In this document: piece by piece, positions 3,129 to 64,000 of the stretch
Layout of the letters: each line of letters opens with the position of its first letter
Position numbering within the stretch: the first letter of the stretch is position 1
NCBI RefSeq assembly: GCF_001427525.1
Contig: NZ_LMGU01000001.1
Coordinates: 310,001-374,000, forward strand
Origin: Microbacterium sp. Root61
GTDB lineage: Bacteria; Actinomycetota; Actinomycetes; Actinomycetales; Microbacteriaceae
Reading direction: 5' to 3'
Length of the DNA: 64,000 bases
Notes under the pieces: model-generated
Told to the model about the DNA's origin: nothing
What the model saw: only the letters and a program-made list of their open reading frames with translations
Databases searched by the model: none
Program-made: the position numbers and the translations under genes

Positions 3129-4778
3129 CTACGCGGCGGCGGCATCCTCGCGAAGGACATGGCTGCGCGCGTGTTCGACGGCGGTCGGGAGGTCGTCGAA
3201 GAGGTGGTTGTGGTGGCGGAGCGACTGCAGCACTCCCACCGTCGTGAACAGATCGACATGCCCTTCCTGCACCCCCTTGATCAGCACCGTGACCCCGCGG
3301 CGCTCCCATTGCCGCACGATTTCGCTGAGCACGTGCGCCCCGGTGGCGTCGACGACTTCGAGCTGCGACATGCGGAGGATCACGACGGACACCCCCTGCA
3401 GCGATGTCACGCTCTCGAGCACCCGATCGGCCGCCGCGAAGATCAGCGGCCCGTCGATGCGGATGACCGCGATCCGTTCATCGCCCGCGACGGGCGGGCC
3501 CGGGAGGTCCTCCCGGTGCACGCCGGTGGAGCGGGACAGGCTGCGGATCGCGAAGGCGCCGGCCACGATCATGCCGATGATCACGGCGACGATGAGGTCC
3601 ACCGAGACCGTCACGATGGCGGTGATCACGAACCCCGCGGCATCCGCCTTGGTCGACCTCAGAATCGATCGCGCGGTGCCGATGTGCACCATGCGCACCG
3701 CGGTGACCATGAGCACCCCGGACAGTGCGGCGAGGGGAATCCTGCCGACGGGACCGGCGGCAAGGAGCACGACCAGCAGGAGGACGACGGCGTGTGCGAT
3801 CGACGCGAGGCGCGTGCGGCCGCCGGAACGCACGTTGACGGCGGTGCGAGCGATGGCCCCGGTGGCCGGCATCCCGCCGAAGAGCCCGGCGGCGACGGAA
3901 GCCAGTCCCTGGCCCACCAGCTCGCGATCGGGGTCGTAGCCACCCGTATCGGCGAGGGAGGCGGCGACCCGAGCCGACAGCAGGGACTCGATCGCGGCGA
4001 GGGCCGCGACGGTCAGCGCGGGCAGCAGCAATGCGGCAATCGTGGCCGGGTCGAAGGAGGGCAGGGCGAGGCCGGGCAGGCTGGTCGGCAGTGCGCCGAT
4101 CACCGTCAGCGGCGAGGGCAGCACCACGGCCAGCAGTGTCACTGCGATGATCCCGATCAATGAACCGGGAAGCGCGCGGTGAACCCGCGGCAGAAGGACC
4201 ATGCATGCCGTGACGATCGCGACGGCGCCGAGCGCCCAGAGCAGATACCCCACGTCGGCATGGACGAGCGAGTCCACGGCGGCGAGGATGACATTCGTCT
4301 CGGAGCTGTGGCTGTCCGGCCCCGTCAGCGCGGGTACCTGCTGCAGGAAGATGATGATCGCGATGCCGACGGTGAACCCTTCGATCACCGGCCACGGGAT
4401 GAAGGACACGGCGCGTCCCAGCCGCAGGACGCCGGCCACCAGAACGATGATTCCCGCCATGACGCTCACCAGGGCGACTGCCGCGATGCCCTGCGAGGCC
4501 ACGATCGGCGCGAGCACCACGACCATCGCTCCCGTGGGACCCGAGATCTGCACGTGCGAGCCGCCGAACACGGCCGCCACGACACCCGCGACGATCGCGG
4601 TGATCAGACCTGCCTCGGCTCCTGCTCCCGAGGAGATTCCGAATCCGAGTGCCAGGGGGAGGGCCACGATGCCGACCGTCAGCCCGGCCAGGAGGTCGCT
4701 CCGCCAGGACCGCCGAACGCCTCGATAGTCGGCGAGTGAGGGGAGCAGGGCGCGCGCCGAAGCCAGCAGCCTGTTCAA
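3129..4778 (-). CDS. SulP-family anion transporter with STAS domain
   Basis: A 549-residue membrane protein. About 10-12 hydrophobic segments fill residues 25-400, beginning with DLLAGLTVGIVALPLALGFG, the typical SulP N-terminal signature. A C-terminal STAS domain (about 430-530; VVILRMSQLEVVDATGAHVL) follows. SulP proteins carry sulfate, bicarbonate or related anions; the substrate is not readable here. The start is a TTG whose last two bases belong to the stop codon of the upstream ArsR-type gene (TTGA overlap), so the two are translationally coupled and the transporter is probably controlled by that regulator. No carbonic anhydrase or sulfur-assimilation gene is adjacent. Confidence 0.92.
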   Translation of the reverse strand: MNRLLASARALLPSLADYRGVRRSWRSDLLAGLTVGIVALPLALGFGISSGAGAEAGLITAIVAGVVAAVFGGSHVQISGPTGAMVVVLAPIVASQGIAAVALVSVMAGIIVLVAGVLRLGRAVSFIPWPVIEGFTVGIAIIIFLQQVPALTGPDSHSSETNVILAAVDSLVHADVGYLLWALGAVAIVTACMVLLPRVHRALPGSLIGIIAVTLLAVVLPSPLTVIGALPTSLPGLALPSFDPATIAALLLPALTVAALAAIESLLSARVAASLADTGGYDPDRELVGQGLASVAAGLFGGMPATGAIARTAVNVRSGGRTRLASIAHAVVLLLVVLLAAGPVGRIPLAALSGVLMVTAVRMVHIGTARSILRSTKADAAGFVITAIVTVSVDLIVAVIIGMIVAGAFAIRSLSRSTGVHREDLPGPPVAGDERIAVIRIDGPLIFAAADRVLESVTSLQGVSVVILRMSQLEVVDATGAHVLSEIVRQWERRGVTVLIKGVQEGHVDLFTTVGVLQSLRHHNHLFDDLPTAVEHARSHVLREDAAAA

Positions 4779-60318: not shown

Positions 60319-60394
60319 GGGCCTGTGGCGCAGTTGGTAGCGCACCTGCATGGCATGCAGGGGGTCAGGGGTTCGAATCCCCTCAGGTCCACCA
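60319..60394 (+). tRNA. tRNA-Ala (anticodon GGC)
   Basis: A full cloverleaf: acceptor GGGCCTG/CAGGTCC with the G3:U70 pair that defines alanine identity, D arm GCGC/GCGC, anticodon stem CCTGC/GCAGG around ATGGCAT, T arm AGGGG/CCCCT. Anticodon GGC reads GCC/GCU. CCA (60392-60394) is encoded. It borders an accessory region, a common integration point. Confidence 0.96.
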
Positions 60395-60395
60395 G

Positions 60396-60420
60396 AAACC
60401 CCCGGTTCGCCGGGGGTTTT
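60396..60420 (+). terminator. Terminator after tRNA-Ala
   Basis: AAACCCCCGG and CCGGGGGTTT form a 10-bp stem with a TTCG tetraloop followed by TT, two bases after the CCA end. Confidence 0.92.
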
Positions 60421-60652
60421 TCGTTTCCCGCCGACGGTGACGGTAGGCGCGCAACGCCCGTGGATAAACGAGGGAATTGCACCAGCTGTTGGGCTTTAGC
60501 GGCGCGCTCCCTCACGGAACATCGGGGGAGTCCACCGCTTCTGTGGTGTTGTCCCCGCTGAGGGATCCCTCGTGCGCGGCGCGTGTCCAACCGCGCCCTG
60601 CGGTGAGCTGCGTGCACTGTGCCGGGCGGCGGGGCGGGTGTACGTTGCAACC
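60421..60652 (+). other. Non-coding start of the accessory region
   Basis: About 230 bases between the tRNA-Ala terminator and the first candidate gene of the accessory region. I see no gene, no integrase remnant and no copy of the tRNA 3' end here. TACGTT at 60641-60646, six bases before GTG 60653, could be a -10. Confidence 0.5.
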
Positions 60653-60859
60653 GTGGATGGATCGCCCTCCGCATCAAACTTGAACCCCGAGTCATTTGAA
60701 CGCATGACACCGTTGCGCGATGCCGGCACGGGCACAGGACAGCAAGAACCCAGGAGATCTCAGTTCGCGGAGTTCCGAACTCCATCGAAACGAGGACGGC
60801 GGTATCGCCCAAGCACTGCAACGGTGGCCAATTGCCGAGCAATTGTTGATGAGGCCTAG
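60653..60859 (+). CDS. Possible small protein ahead of the CHAT gene
   Basis: A 68-residue candidate (VDGSPSASNLNPESFERM to VANCRAIVDEA), Arg/Ser/Thr-rich, no family recognised. For: GTG 60653 follows TACGTT by six bases, the leaderless pattern seen in this window, and its TAG stop lies 13 bases before the CHAT gene's TTG with AAGGAG between. Against: unremarkable composition and short length. The same stretch is alternatively read as the N-terminus of the CHAT protein in another frame. Confidence 0.35.
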   Translation: MDGSPSASNLNPESFERMTPLRDAGTGTGQQEPRRSQFAEFRTPSKRGRRYRPSTATVANCRAIVDEA

Positions 60860-60872
60860 CGAAGGAGACGAC

Positions 60873-63731
60873 TTGTCCGACGTCCCTGACGGAGCGCAGT
60901 TGATCGGCCTGATCGATGACGCCGTCGATCTCGTGGCGGCGGCGCGAGCCACCGGCGATCGTGTGTCCCTTGCGACGGCGATCCACAACCTCGAAGTCGC
61001 ACGGCGTACAGCGCCGGGCGTGTTGATGGATACGGTGCTCGTGAATCTCGGGATGGCGTTGAACACCAGGTTTGAGATGGATGGAAATATCGCCGACCTG
61101 TCCGAGGCCGTCGTGGTCTCTCGCGACGCTGTCAAACTCACACCGGTCGCGGACCCTCGCCGCGCCGGTCGCGTCTCGAATCTTGGCGTGGCTCTCAAGT
61201 GGCGCTACGAATTCGGGGGAGGCGAGCTGGCAGACCTGCAGGAGTCGATCGCCTGTCAGCGAGAAGCGGCTGAACTCACAGCCCAGAAAGATCCCGAACG
61301 CTCGAAGTTCGCCACGAATCTTGCCAACACTCTACTCATGCGATTTGGGCACACGGCGGCCGCCCCCGATCTCGATGAGTCCATCGGCTGGTTTGAGGCG
61401 GCGCTGGCCGCAACACCAGTGACTCACCCACGTCTCGCGCGGCGGCGCGCGAACCTGGCTAATGCGCTGAGCTCACGGTACGACCTCCTCGGTGCCCGCA
61501 CGGATCTCGATGCCGCTGTCTCCCTTCTTCAGCAGGCGGTTGCGGCGACGGCTCCGAACGATCCTGCGCTCGCGGCCGACCTGTCCAACTTGGGCAACGC
61601 ATTCTTGTCTGATTACGAGCGGACAGGAAGCTATGCGAGCCTCGACACGGCGGTCCTTCACCTAGAAGGATCAATTGCAAGGACAGCGCGCAACGATCCG
61701 CAACTGCCGCATCGTCTTTCGAATCTCGCCTCAGCTCTCAGTGCCCGTGGCAGTTTGACTTCGTCCCTCGCTGACTTCGACGCGGCGATCTCAGCGACCG
61801 ATCGAGCGCTGGGCTCGCTGACCGACGATCAGCCGGCTTTTGCGCGCGTGTTTTTCAACTTTGGGTCGCTTCTCAGGTCGCGTTTCAGCGTCAGCGGCGA
61901 CCTCATAGACCTAGACGCCGCGATCGAGTACATGCATGCGGCCATCAGCGCCCTGCCGCCCGCCGCGCCATTACTCTGCGTTGTTCGGACAACGTTGGGG
62001 AAGGCGATCGAGGACCGCGCCGAGATCACTGGATCCCAAACTGATCTGGGCTCAGCACTGACGGAGTATCTGGCAGCCATGCGGGTGGATACGGCGGCCC
62101 CGATGGATCGGTGTGTCGCAGCGATGAGGGCGGCCGCCCTGTCGACCGCCCAGGATGCCTCCGCCTGCTATGCGGAGGCCATCACGCTCCTCCCTTCCGT
62201 CCTCCAGCCCTGGCTCGATCGAACCGACACACTGGCGCGCGTCGCGGCGCTCAGCGGACTCGGCATGAATGCCGCCGCGGCGTACCTCGCGACTGACCAG
62301 CCGCGACAGGCGCTGTCGGCTGTGGAGCACGGACGGGCTCTCACCCTCAGCGGGCTCATTCAGCTTCGTGGTGACTTCGACAAGCTCCAAACTGCACATC
62401 CAGAGACGGCAGATCGCCTGAGTGCGCTGCTGAAGGTGCTGAATGCTCCGCGAAAACTACGCGCCGCAGACGCTGCACGGGACCTCTCGGCACAGGAGAA
62501 CAGTCGACGCCGTGAGGCGCAATCCCAACTCACGCCTGTCCTCGAGCGGATCCGAACTCAGCCAGGTTTTGAGCAGTTCTTCTTGCCTCCCGACCCTGAC
62601 CAACTGGTCGCAGGTGGGCGGGAGGGGCCGATCGTAGTCGTGAATGTCGCGCGCACGCGTTGTGACGCACTCGTGGTCAATGACGGCGATGTGGACGTGG
62701 TCGAGCTCAAGGACCTCACAGCTGCTGACTGTGCAGACGCGGCCATGGCCCTGCTCAGTGCTACCGATCAGCTATTTGCCCCAGATGTACCCGATAAGGC
62801 GTTCGCCGCGGCAGAGGCAGACCTCATCCGCCTACTTGCTTGGGCGTGGGACCGGATCGCCGATCCCGTTCTGACACACCTCGGGTTCTCTGCACCGAGA
62901 TCGGATAGCGAGTATGGCGCCTGGCCTCGCATCTGGTGGGTTCCGACCGGTCCCCTCACGGTCTTCCCGATGCATGCGGCCGGGTATCACTCTGCCAGTA
63001 ATGCCGGGGAGCCGGCGCGCGAGCGGACGGTAATGGATCGTGTCGTCTCAAGCACTGTGCCTTCGATCAGTGCGCTCCTTCACGCTCGGACGCGGCCTCT
63101 CGCCGACCTTCAACCGCGCGCTCTTCTGCTGGCGATGCCGACCACCCCTGGGCTCCCCGAACTCGAAAGTGTGATTGACGAAGTGGAGCGTGTGGCACGG
63201 CTGATCCCACGCGCAGACGTCACGATGATTGGGGTCGATCCATCTCAGCAAACCGGCGAGCCTTCGCGGCGAACCGTGCTCGGGCTACTCCCGACGCACG
63301 CGTGGACGCACTTCGCGTGTCACGGCGAGGCGAACCCCACCGACCCGGCAAAGTCAAACCTCGTCCTCGCCGATCACCAGAGTGACCCGCTGACGGTCGA
63401 GGACATCGTCGGGCTGAAACTGGAGCAGGCACAACTCGCATACTTCTCCGCGTGCACTACCGCGCGCCCGGGTCGCAAGGTGCTCGATGAACCCGTCCAC
63501 TTCGCTGCGGCGGCCCTTCTCGCTGGTTATCGGCACGCCATCGGCACATTGTGGCCGATCCCCGATCGTCCCCATTCTGCCGAGACTATTTACCGGATCC
63601 TGTCCTCGGATGGATTCGACTGGACGGCGGCCTCAGCTGCAGTTGCGGTTCACACTGCAGTGCATGGAGAGCGCCGAGCCTTCCCAGACCAACCCCAATA
63701 TTGGGCTGCACTCCTGCATCAAGGCCCGTAG
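60873..63731 (+). CDS. TPR-CHAT caspase-like protease
   Basis: About 952 residues. Residues about 10-480 are tandem helical TPR-like repeats (pattern LSNLGNAL-SRY-TG-DLD). A linker follows, then a CHAT peptidase domain (about 590-950), with the catalytic pair His817 (THFACHGEA) and Cys861 (AYFSACTTARPG). CHAT proteins are separase/caspase relatives; in TPR-CHAT systems the repeats sense a partner and unleash proteolysis. I chose TTG 60873 for AAGGAG six bases upstream; ATG 60720 would add 51 residues without TPR character. Many A/T-ending codons and the tRNA-Ala flank suggest acquisition. Confidence 0.88.
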   Translation: MSDVPDGAQLIGLIDDAVDLVAAARATGDRVSLATAIHNLEVARRTAPGVLMDTVLVNLGMALNTRFEMDGNIADLSEAVVVSRDAVKLTPVADPRRAGRVSNLGVALKWRYEFGGGELADLQESIACQREAAELTAQKDPERSKFATNLANTLLMRFGHTAAAPDLDESIGWFEAALAATPVTHPRLARRRANLANALSSRYDLLGARTDLDAAVSLLQQAVAATAPNDPALAADLSNLGNAFLSDYERTGSYASLDTAVLHLEGSIARTARNDPQLPHRLSNLASALSARGSLTSSLADFDAAISATDRALGSLTDDQPAFARVFFNFGSLLRSRFSVSGDLIDLDAAIEYMHAAISALPPAAPLLCVVRTTLGKAIEDRAEITGSQTDLGSALTEYLAAMRVDTAAPMDRCVAAMRAAALSTAQDASACYAEAITLLPSVLQPWLDRTDTLARVAALSGLGMNAAAAYLATDQPRQALSAVEHGRALTLSGLIQLRGDFDKLQTAHPETADRLSALLKVLNAPRKLRAADAARDLSAQENSRRREAQSQLTPVLERIRTQPGFEQFFLPPDPDQLVAGGREGPIVVVNVARTRCDALVVNDGDVDVVELKDLTAADCADAAMALLSATDQLFAPDVPDKAFAAAEADLIRLLAWAWDRIADPVLTHLGFSAPRSDSEYGAWPRIWWVPTGPLTVFPMHAAGYHSASNAGEPARERTVMDRVVSSTVPSISALLHARTRPLADLQPRALLLAMPTTPGLPELESVIDEVERVARLIPRADVTMIGVDPSQQTGEPSRRTVLGLLPTHAWTHFACHGEANPTDPAKSNLVLADHQSDPLTVEDIVGLKLEQAQLAYFSACTTARPGRKVLDEPVHFAAAALLAGYRHAIGTLWPIPDRPHSAETIYRILSSDGFDWTAASAAVAVHTAVHGERRAFPDQPQYWAALLHQGP

Positions 63732-63927
63732 GGACAGACGGAACGATCCTGCGGGCGCGAAAACCACCACGGGACGGGCGGCGCGGCCATCAGAGCACGC
63801 CGGTGCTGACCGTTCCCCGCTTGCGGCTCGGTGCCAACCCCGACATCGCGCAACATCGGTGCGCTCTCATCACCTGATGGACGACCGCCCTCTGGCGCGG
63901 GTGCGGTGTGGATGCTATTTGTATTCC

Positions 63928-64000
63928 ATGTCACGCATCATCGGTGTGCACGGAATGGGCGCGCAACAGGTCGGCAGCGACCAGCTATCAGCGGACTGGC
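63928..64000 (+). CDS. Probable alpha/beta-hydrolase-type partner of CHAT, truncated
   Basis: An ATG at 63928 opens a frame to the window end, about 24 residues (MSRIIGVHGMGAQQVGSDQL...). The strand-then-HGxG pattern followed by Gln and a Trp is the start seen in alpha/beta-hydrolase-like proteins encoded beside CHAT genes in actinobacteria. CTATTT lies seven bases upstream as a possible -10. It follows the CHAT gene by about 196 bases on the same strand. Too short for certainty; its role as effector is inference. Confidence 0.5.
   Translation, partial: MSRIIGVHGMGAQQVGSDQLSADW

Follow-up and report, generated by a model that had tools for sequence, protein, structure and literature searches.

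A three-gene island at a tRNA-Ala gene of Microbacterium sp. Root61 combines a TPR-CHAT protease gene with an alpha/beta-hydrolase gene and a short caspase gene

Behind a tRNA-Ala (GGC) gene in the 4.02-Mb, two-contig genome of Microbacterium sp. Root61, a gene for a TPR-CHAT protease is followed on the same strand by an alpha/beta-hydrolase gene, which raises the question of how these genes came to lie together and which of them act together. The window analysed here is a stretch of 64,000 nucleotides (G000:C1:310001-374000), and the island analysis read past its end to 387999, in a locus (L009) whose positions equal the window positions minus 57999. An earlier note, made from the window sequence, had advised extending beyond position 64000; this extension recovered the whole hydrolase gene, a caspase gene and a repeat of the 3' end of the tRNA gene. 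Taken together, the three genes constitute a foreign island integrated at the 3' end of the tRNA gene, without an integrase of its own.

The tRNA gene, which the earlier note had placed ahead of the TPR-CHAT gene, was located by ARAGORN at 60319..60394 on the plus strand, and it lies at the same place in all 14 relatives fetched from the genus genomes (115 of 119) that an upstream-locus search had matched. Its 3' end and terminator form the left direct repeat (60361..60442, plus strand), which sequence alignment matched at 87% over approximately 82 bp (E 2.0e-19) to a right copy beyond the window (L009:8421-8501, that is, G000:C1:376420-376500, window-equivalent 66420-66500), giving a repeat-to-repeat distance of 6.06 kb. 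No tRNA gene was called at this degenerate right copy, although tRNA-like matches also occur elsewhere in the genome, and the right copy is therefore a 3' fragment. The repeats bracket exactly three genes, all on one strand, encoding the TPR-CHAT protease, the hydrolase and the caspase. The third-position G + C content of these genes is 0.69-0.72, compared with 0.90-0.91 for three core genes elsewhere on the contig, which bears out the earlier remark that A/T-ending codons are more frequent here than in the core. The segment thus shows the direct repeat of a tRNA 3' end, bounding foreign DNA, that marks a tRNA-inserted genomic island.

Neither the island nor nine open reading frames (ORFs) chosen downstream of it contained a recognisable integrase. 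Three tyrosine recombinases scored above the cut-off in the genome, the nearest approximately 115 kb from the island and none tied to it. None of the 14 fetched relatives has a second copy of the last 30 bases of the tRNA (up to 6 mismatches) within the 10 kb fetched. The content downstream of the tRNA varies among them: three (L176, L181 and L185) are collinear with L009 from approximately 14.3 kb, and two others (L177 and L178) have shorter collinear matches further downstream. A 51-base copy (94%) of the 5' part of tRNA-Ala is found in L178, 2.2 kb downstream of the tRNA (3225-3275, on the reverse complement of the fetched stretch), and because of this copy the tRNA-Ala site may recombine elsewhere too, a hint of further insertions there.

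The first island gene (60873..63731, plus strand) encodes a TPR-CHAT protein of 952 residues, as the earlier note had read it. Because AAGGAG lies upstream at 60862-60867, the TTG at 60873 appears the likelier start than the ATG at 60720, the first ATG, which would give 1003 aa (ORF 60720-63731). Pfam recognised CHAT (E 1.7e-34) and TPR_10 (E 1.9e-6) in the protein, and no SAVED domain; the CHAT match (PF12770) reached 120 bits against a curated cut-off of 24, and the proposed catalytic residues, His817 and Cys861, were found to be invariant in 37 of 37 aligned sequences. With phmmer, the stretch carrying this dyad aligned with Csx29 of the solved Craspase structures (E 1.9e-4). Matches to the CHAT protein occur in 4 of 396 phylum genomes and matches to the CHAT alignment profile in 2 of 388 family genomes, the genome studied here included in both counts; the other family match covers only positions 129-623 of 1149. 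The same genome also harbors a second CHAT gene (G000:C1:3205276-3205947, L198; an open frame of approximately 840 aa), which is positionally unrelated to the island.

The suspected same-strand alpha/beta-hydrolase about 200 bases downstream proved to be real. It starts at 63928 with the N-terminus MSRIIGVHGMGAQQ, 196 bp past the CHAT stop; the first 73 bases of the gene (63928..64000, plus strand) lie in the window, and the whole gene (L009:5929-6789, window-equivalent 63928-64788) encodes 286 aa with a GHSLGS motif. Counting the island copy, its family comprises 96 database matches with E no higher than 1e-5, with none among 50,697 phage records, and no solved structure related to it by sequence was found. 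The caspase gene lies beyond the window (L009:6786-8192, window-equivalent 64785-66191, plus strand) and overlaps the hydrolase stop by 4 bp. Its product of 468 aa belongs to the caspase family (Peptidase_C14), with a C14 profile match, a His-Cys dyad and a caspase fold.

The conserved partner of the hydrolase is the caspase, not the CHAT protease. We read 117 hydrolase loci; in the named-locus sample (the best 80 of 234), a caspase gene lies within 600 bp of the hydrolase gene in 75, as counted with a caspase profile built in part from these same 80 loci. The order is hydrolase then caspase on the same strand in 48, caspase then hydrolase in 4, divergent in 21 and convergent in 2, and there is no caspase neighbour within this distance at L019, L023, L024, L077 and L082. 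Of the 30 rows in the caspase alignment, 23 are also matched by the Pfam caspase model. The caspase adjoins the hydrolase in 13 of 13 loci of a class-wide sample outside the training set, some of which may be from the same species. Across the 75 loci, the similarities of hydrolase and caspase to the island copies rise together (Spearman 0.63). Among distant hydrolase matches at the order level, a caspase profile match is adjacent or fused in only 6 of 18, and in IMG/VR loci a caspase stands beside the hydrolase in two of four. Both plasmid loci have one as well, L119 by the profile and L120 by annotation, the latter being missed by our custom profile. On L119 (Rhodococcus ruber plasmid pmega_1), the hydrolase and caspase-WD40 genes have a recombinase/helicase/PIN group on one side and a SIR2-family gene on the other. 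The divergent order (21 of 80 loci, within L052-L090) is seen, for example, in Amycolatopsis, Nocardia and Kribbella, with caspase ORFs of 778-1369 aa.

Compared with its nearest relatives, the island caspase is missing two parts. In those relatives (L014-L017, L020 and L021), the caspase domain is followed by a Walker A NTPase and a helical region, with WD40 after these on contigs that extend far enough. In the island protein, the STAND NTPase core is absent, an in-frame difference of about 245-290 residues, and so is the terminal WD40 part: between its positions 255 and 305 it has 49 residues, versus 293-338 in 18 relatives longer than 1100 aa, 17 of which carry a Walker A motif in this interval, and after position 445 it has 23, versus 471-1143. 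It contains no Walker A, and Pfam, read as far as E 1, matched neither an NTPase nor WD40 in it; it is thus not a caspase-STAND-WD40 protein. In the 30 alignment rows, AAA_16 was recognised in 20 and WD40 in 15. Cyanobacterial relatives (L027) have VMAP-C in place of the NTPase. Among the loci read, a caspase that lacks the NTPase core alone was found only in the genome studied here, contig ends and frameshifts precluding a judgement at several others. Short caspase ORFs occur in 2 of 48 same-strand loci, L018 and L028, each for another reason; that of L028 departs from the family partway through the NTPase. In L018 (3535-4983; a metagenome-assembled genome of Actinomycetota, PMSU01000054.1), the caspase beside the hydrolase relative continues in frame into a region resembling a chaperonin (GroEL); a stop follows, beyond which the same frame is still chaperonin-like, as read by eye from the translation. 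Caspase matches were obtained in 3 of 295 genus genomes, our own included, the other two being weak (E 1.1e-5 and 4.1e-5) and in ORFs of more than 1400 aa. A protein search with the island caspase, which scored 7995 candidates sharing most words and of 0.55-1.75 times its length, matched only itself, and a PF00656 scan of the whole genome for other caspases gave no match but missed the island caspase as well. Parsimony from the nearest relatives, rather than a tree, suggests that the NTPase was lost and not ancestrally absent.

Within the island, the hydrolase and the caspase make up an inherited core, a pair of a type already known from conflict or cell-death systems. In VMAP (MoxR-vWA) ternary conflict systems, according to Kaur et al. 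2020 (PMC7159879), a caspase domain has an alpha/beta-hydrolase gene beside it in every case, an adjacency that the island shares, and several cyanobacterial relatives of the hydrolase (e.g., L027) adjoin caspase-VMAP proteins. The same text assigns the published pair to VMAP systems and, in a form with a related hydrolase, to GAP1 systems, whereas genes for VMAP, MoxR, vWA or GAP1 are absent from the island and its caspase has neither VMAP-C nor NTPase. The three island genes and the nine downstream ORFs gave no VMAP-C, MoxR or vWA match by Pfam, and the island is thus not a VMAP ternary system. Metacaspase-NACHT-WD40 proteins have been in print since 2012 (PMC3501461), and the nearest caspase relatives share their order of caspase, STAND/AAA NTPase and WD40; however, the island caspase has no NTPase or WD40, and the available part of that report mentions no alpha/beta-hydrolase partner. 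Nor is this an EACC1-caspase two-gene system, as the caspase_w_EACC1 model scored 50.7 bits against a cut-off of 140 and the 5' gene is a hydrolase. In canu, a MALT1-like caspase activates a nuclease, as proven in phage defence (PMC12799240). Like the island, canu pairs a caspase with a hydrolytic effector, but its effector is a metallo-beta-lactamase (MBL)-fold nuclease, and the system, as far as the available text describes it, contains no CHAT or alpha/beta hydrolase.

The TPR-CHAT protein shares its protease type with two published systems. It resembles the type III-E TPR-CHAT protein (Csx29) of Craspase in the His and Cys region, but no Cas genes were found near the island, the Csx29 model scored 30.4 bits, far below its cut-off of 300, and Cas1 had no match in the genome (a control search was positive in 9 of 14 genomes), gRAMP (Cas7-11) itself not having been searched. 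On the Csx29 score the island does not qualify as a type III-E Craspase, and a CRISPR link for the TPR-CHAT protein found no support in the Csx29 and Cas1 results; the earlier note had remarked that the window holds no CRISPR array or Cas gene. SAVED-CHAT, which acts via a proteolysis cascade (PMC11229360), likewise has a CHAT protease and differs in the SAVED domain, which Pfam did not recognise here. No paper on a CHAT-hydrolase-caspase island was found in the open-licence literature, subscription journals being mostly outside this coverage. The parts are therefore already known; the combination of a stripped caspase and a TPR-CHAT gene within a single tRNA island had no counterpart in that literature.

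How might the three products work together? In the nearest relatives, the NTPase and WD40 presumably serve sensing and assembly. A caspase without them therefore needs some other trigger, and the TPR-CHAT protein perhaps replaces the lost sensor. Our favoured reading, a tentative one that falls somewhat short of an even chance, is that the 6.06-kb island is a three-gene protease/hydrolase module in which a relay from TPR-CHAT through the stripped caspase to the lipase-like hydrolase kills or arrests the cell. We infer every activation step, the hydrolase substrate and the purpose of the module as follows: the TPR arm would sense a trigger and activate the CHAT domain, CHAT would cleave or otherwise switch on the caspase, the caspase would license the hydrolase, and the hydrolase would attack membrane lipids or another ester. 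The cascade of SAVED-CHAT reportedly runs through a caspase. SAVED-CHAT (PMC11229360) and canu (PMC12799240) offer precedents for such a proteolytic relay. A bolder form of this reading, which we consider doubtful, is a sensor swap, in which a STAND-type apoptosome (caspase-NTPase-WD40 with hydrolase) was cut down to its executioner and rewired to a TPR-CHAT initiator, the outcome being a cascade of two proteases, with no ATPase, that sets off a lipase from a 6-kb, integrase-less mobile tRNA island.

Two observations weigh against the relay. CHAT is almost never a neighbour of the hydrolase: a CHAT profile match was found in only 3 of the 117 hydrolase loci (L015, as fragments; L047, with a CHAT protein of 1437 aa approximately 1.3 kb beyond the caspase; and L122), and no hydrolase or caspase profile match was found in the six fetched loci of CHAT relatives. 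The domain loss in the caspase also fits decay. Defence genes were recognised in 1 of 74 ORFs neighbouring related loci (drawn from 109 chosen) versus 1 of 37 window control ORFs (PADLOC, E up to 1e-15). On the island itself, PADLOC gave one weak caspase hit (E 1e-6). Because the neighbour ORFs are not enriched and this hit is weak, a defence or programmed-death role is suggested by the protein families and published systems rather than by genome context. A separate proposal, that an ancestral three-gene system is retained in S. hiroshimensis (L015), was rejected, as the CHAT fragment there resembles other Streptomyces CHAT proteins more closely.

The rarity of CHAT beside the hydrolase, and of either partner beside CHAT relatives, would be expected if the hydrolase and short caspase worked as a pair and TPR-CHAT were unrelated island cargo, and the 196-bp gap ahead of the hydrolase points the same way. 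However, the repeats enclose exactly three same-strand genes, and the caspase of such a pair would have neither NTPase nor WD40 and would need another trigger; we regard this explanation as credible but unlikely. A further possibility is that the island is the decaying, nonfunctional remnant of a hydrolase/caspase-STAND-WD40 system whose ATPase and sensor disappeared once it had been inserted. Two domain losses, the want of an integrase, direct repeats that are only 87% alike and a protein search that gave no other short caspase relative are in its favor. Nevertheless, all three frames are open with their catalytic residues kept, the codon-position GC pattern along the caspase is of the coding type, the loss is in frame at domain edges (an in-frame junction alone being a one-in-three chance), and the part after the junction (approximately residues 289-457) is predicted to fold confidently (predicted local distance difference test mostly 82-96 for residues 301-460, one block at 66 excepted). 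We regard decay as slightly less likely than unrelated CHAT cargo, but both as serious rivals of the relay. The two-gene module of the earlier note, with CHAT activating the hydrolase, is very improbable: the theme of a protease-activated effector is plausible and the genes are adjacent on the same strand, but their co-occurrence, searched for as that note had proposed, is not conserved at the loci counted above, an outcome it had itself named as refuting the CHAT link, and the partner conserved beside the hydrolase is the caspase. On these counts, CHAT-hydrolase was rejected as a conserved pair.

The hydrolase-caspase pair extends well past the VMAP systems; there it chiefly involves caspase-STAND-WD40 proteins of actinobacteria. 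If the relay from TPR-CHAT to the stripped caspase is true, a bacterial caspase system would be able to exchange its sensing half for a second, unrelated protease, and the island would provide a small three-gene set for a CHAT-to-caspase-to-lipase cascade without the 1400-residue STAND protein.
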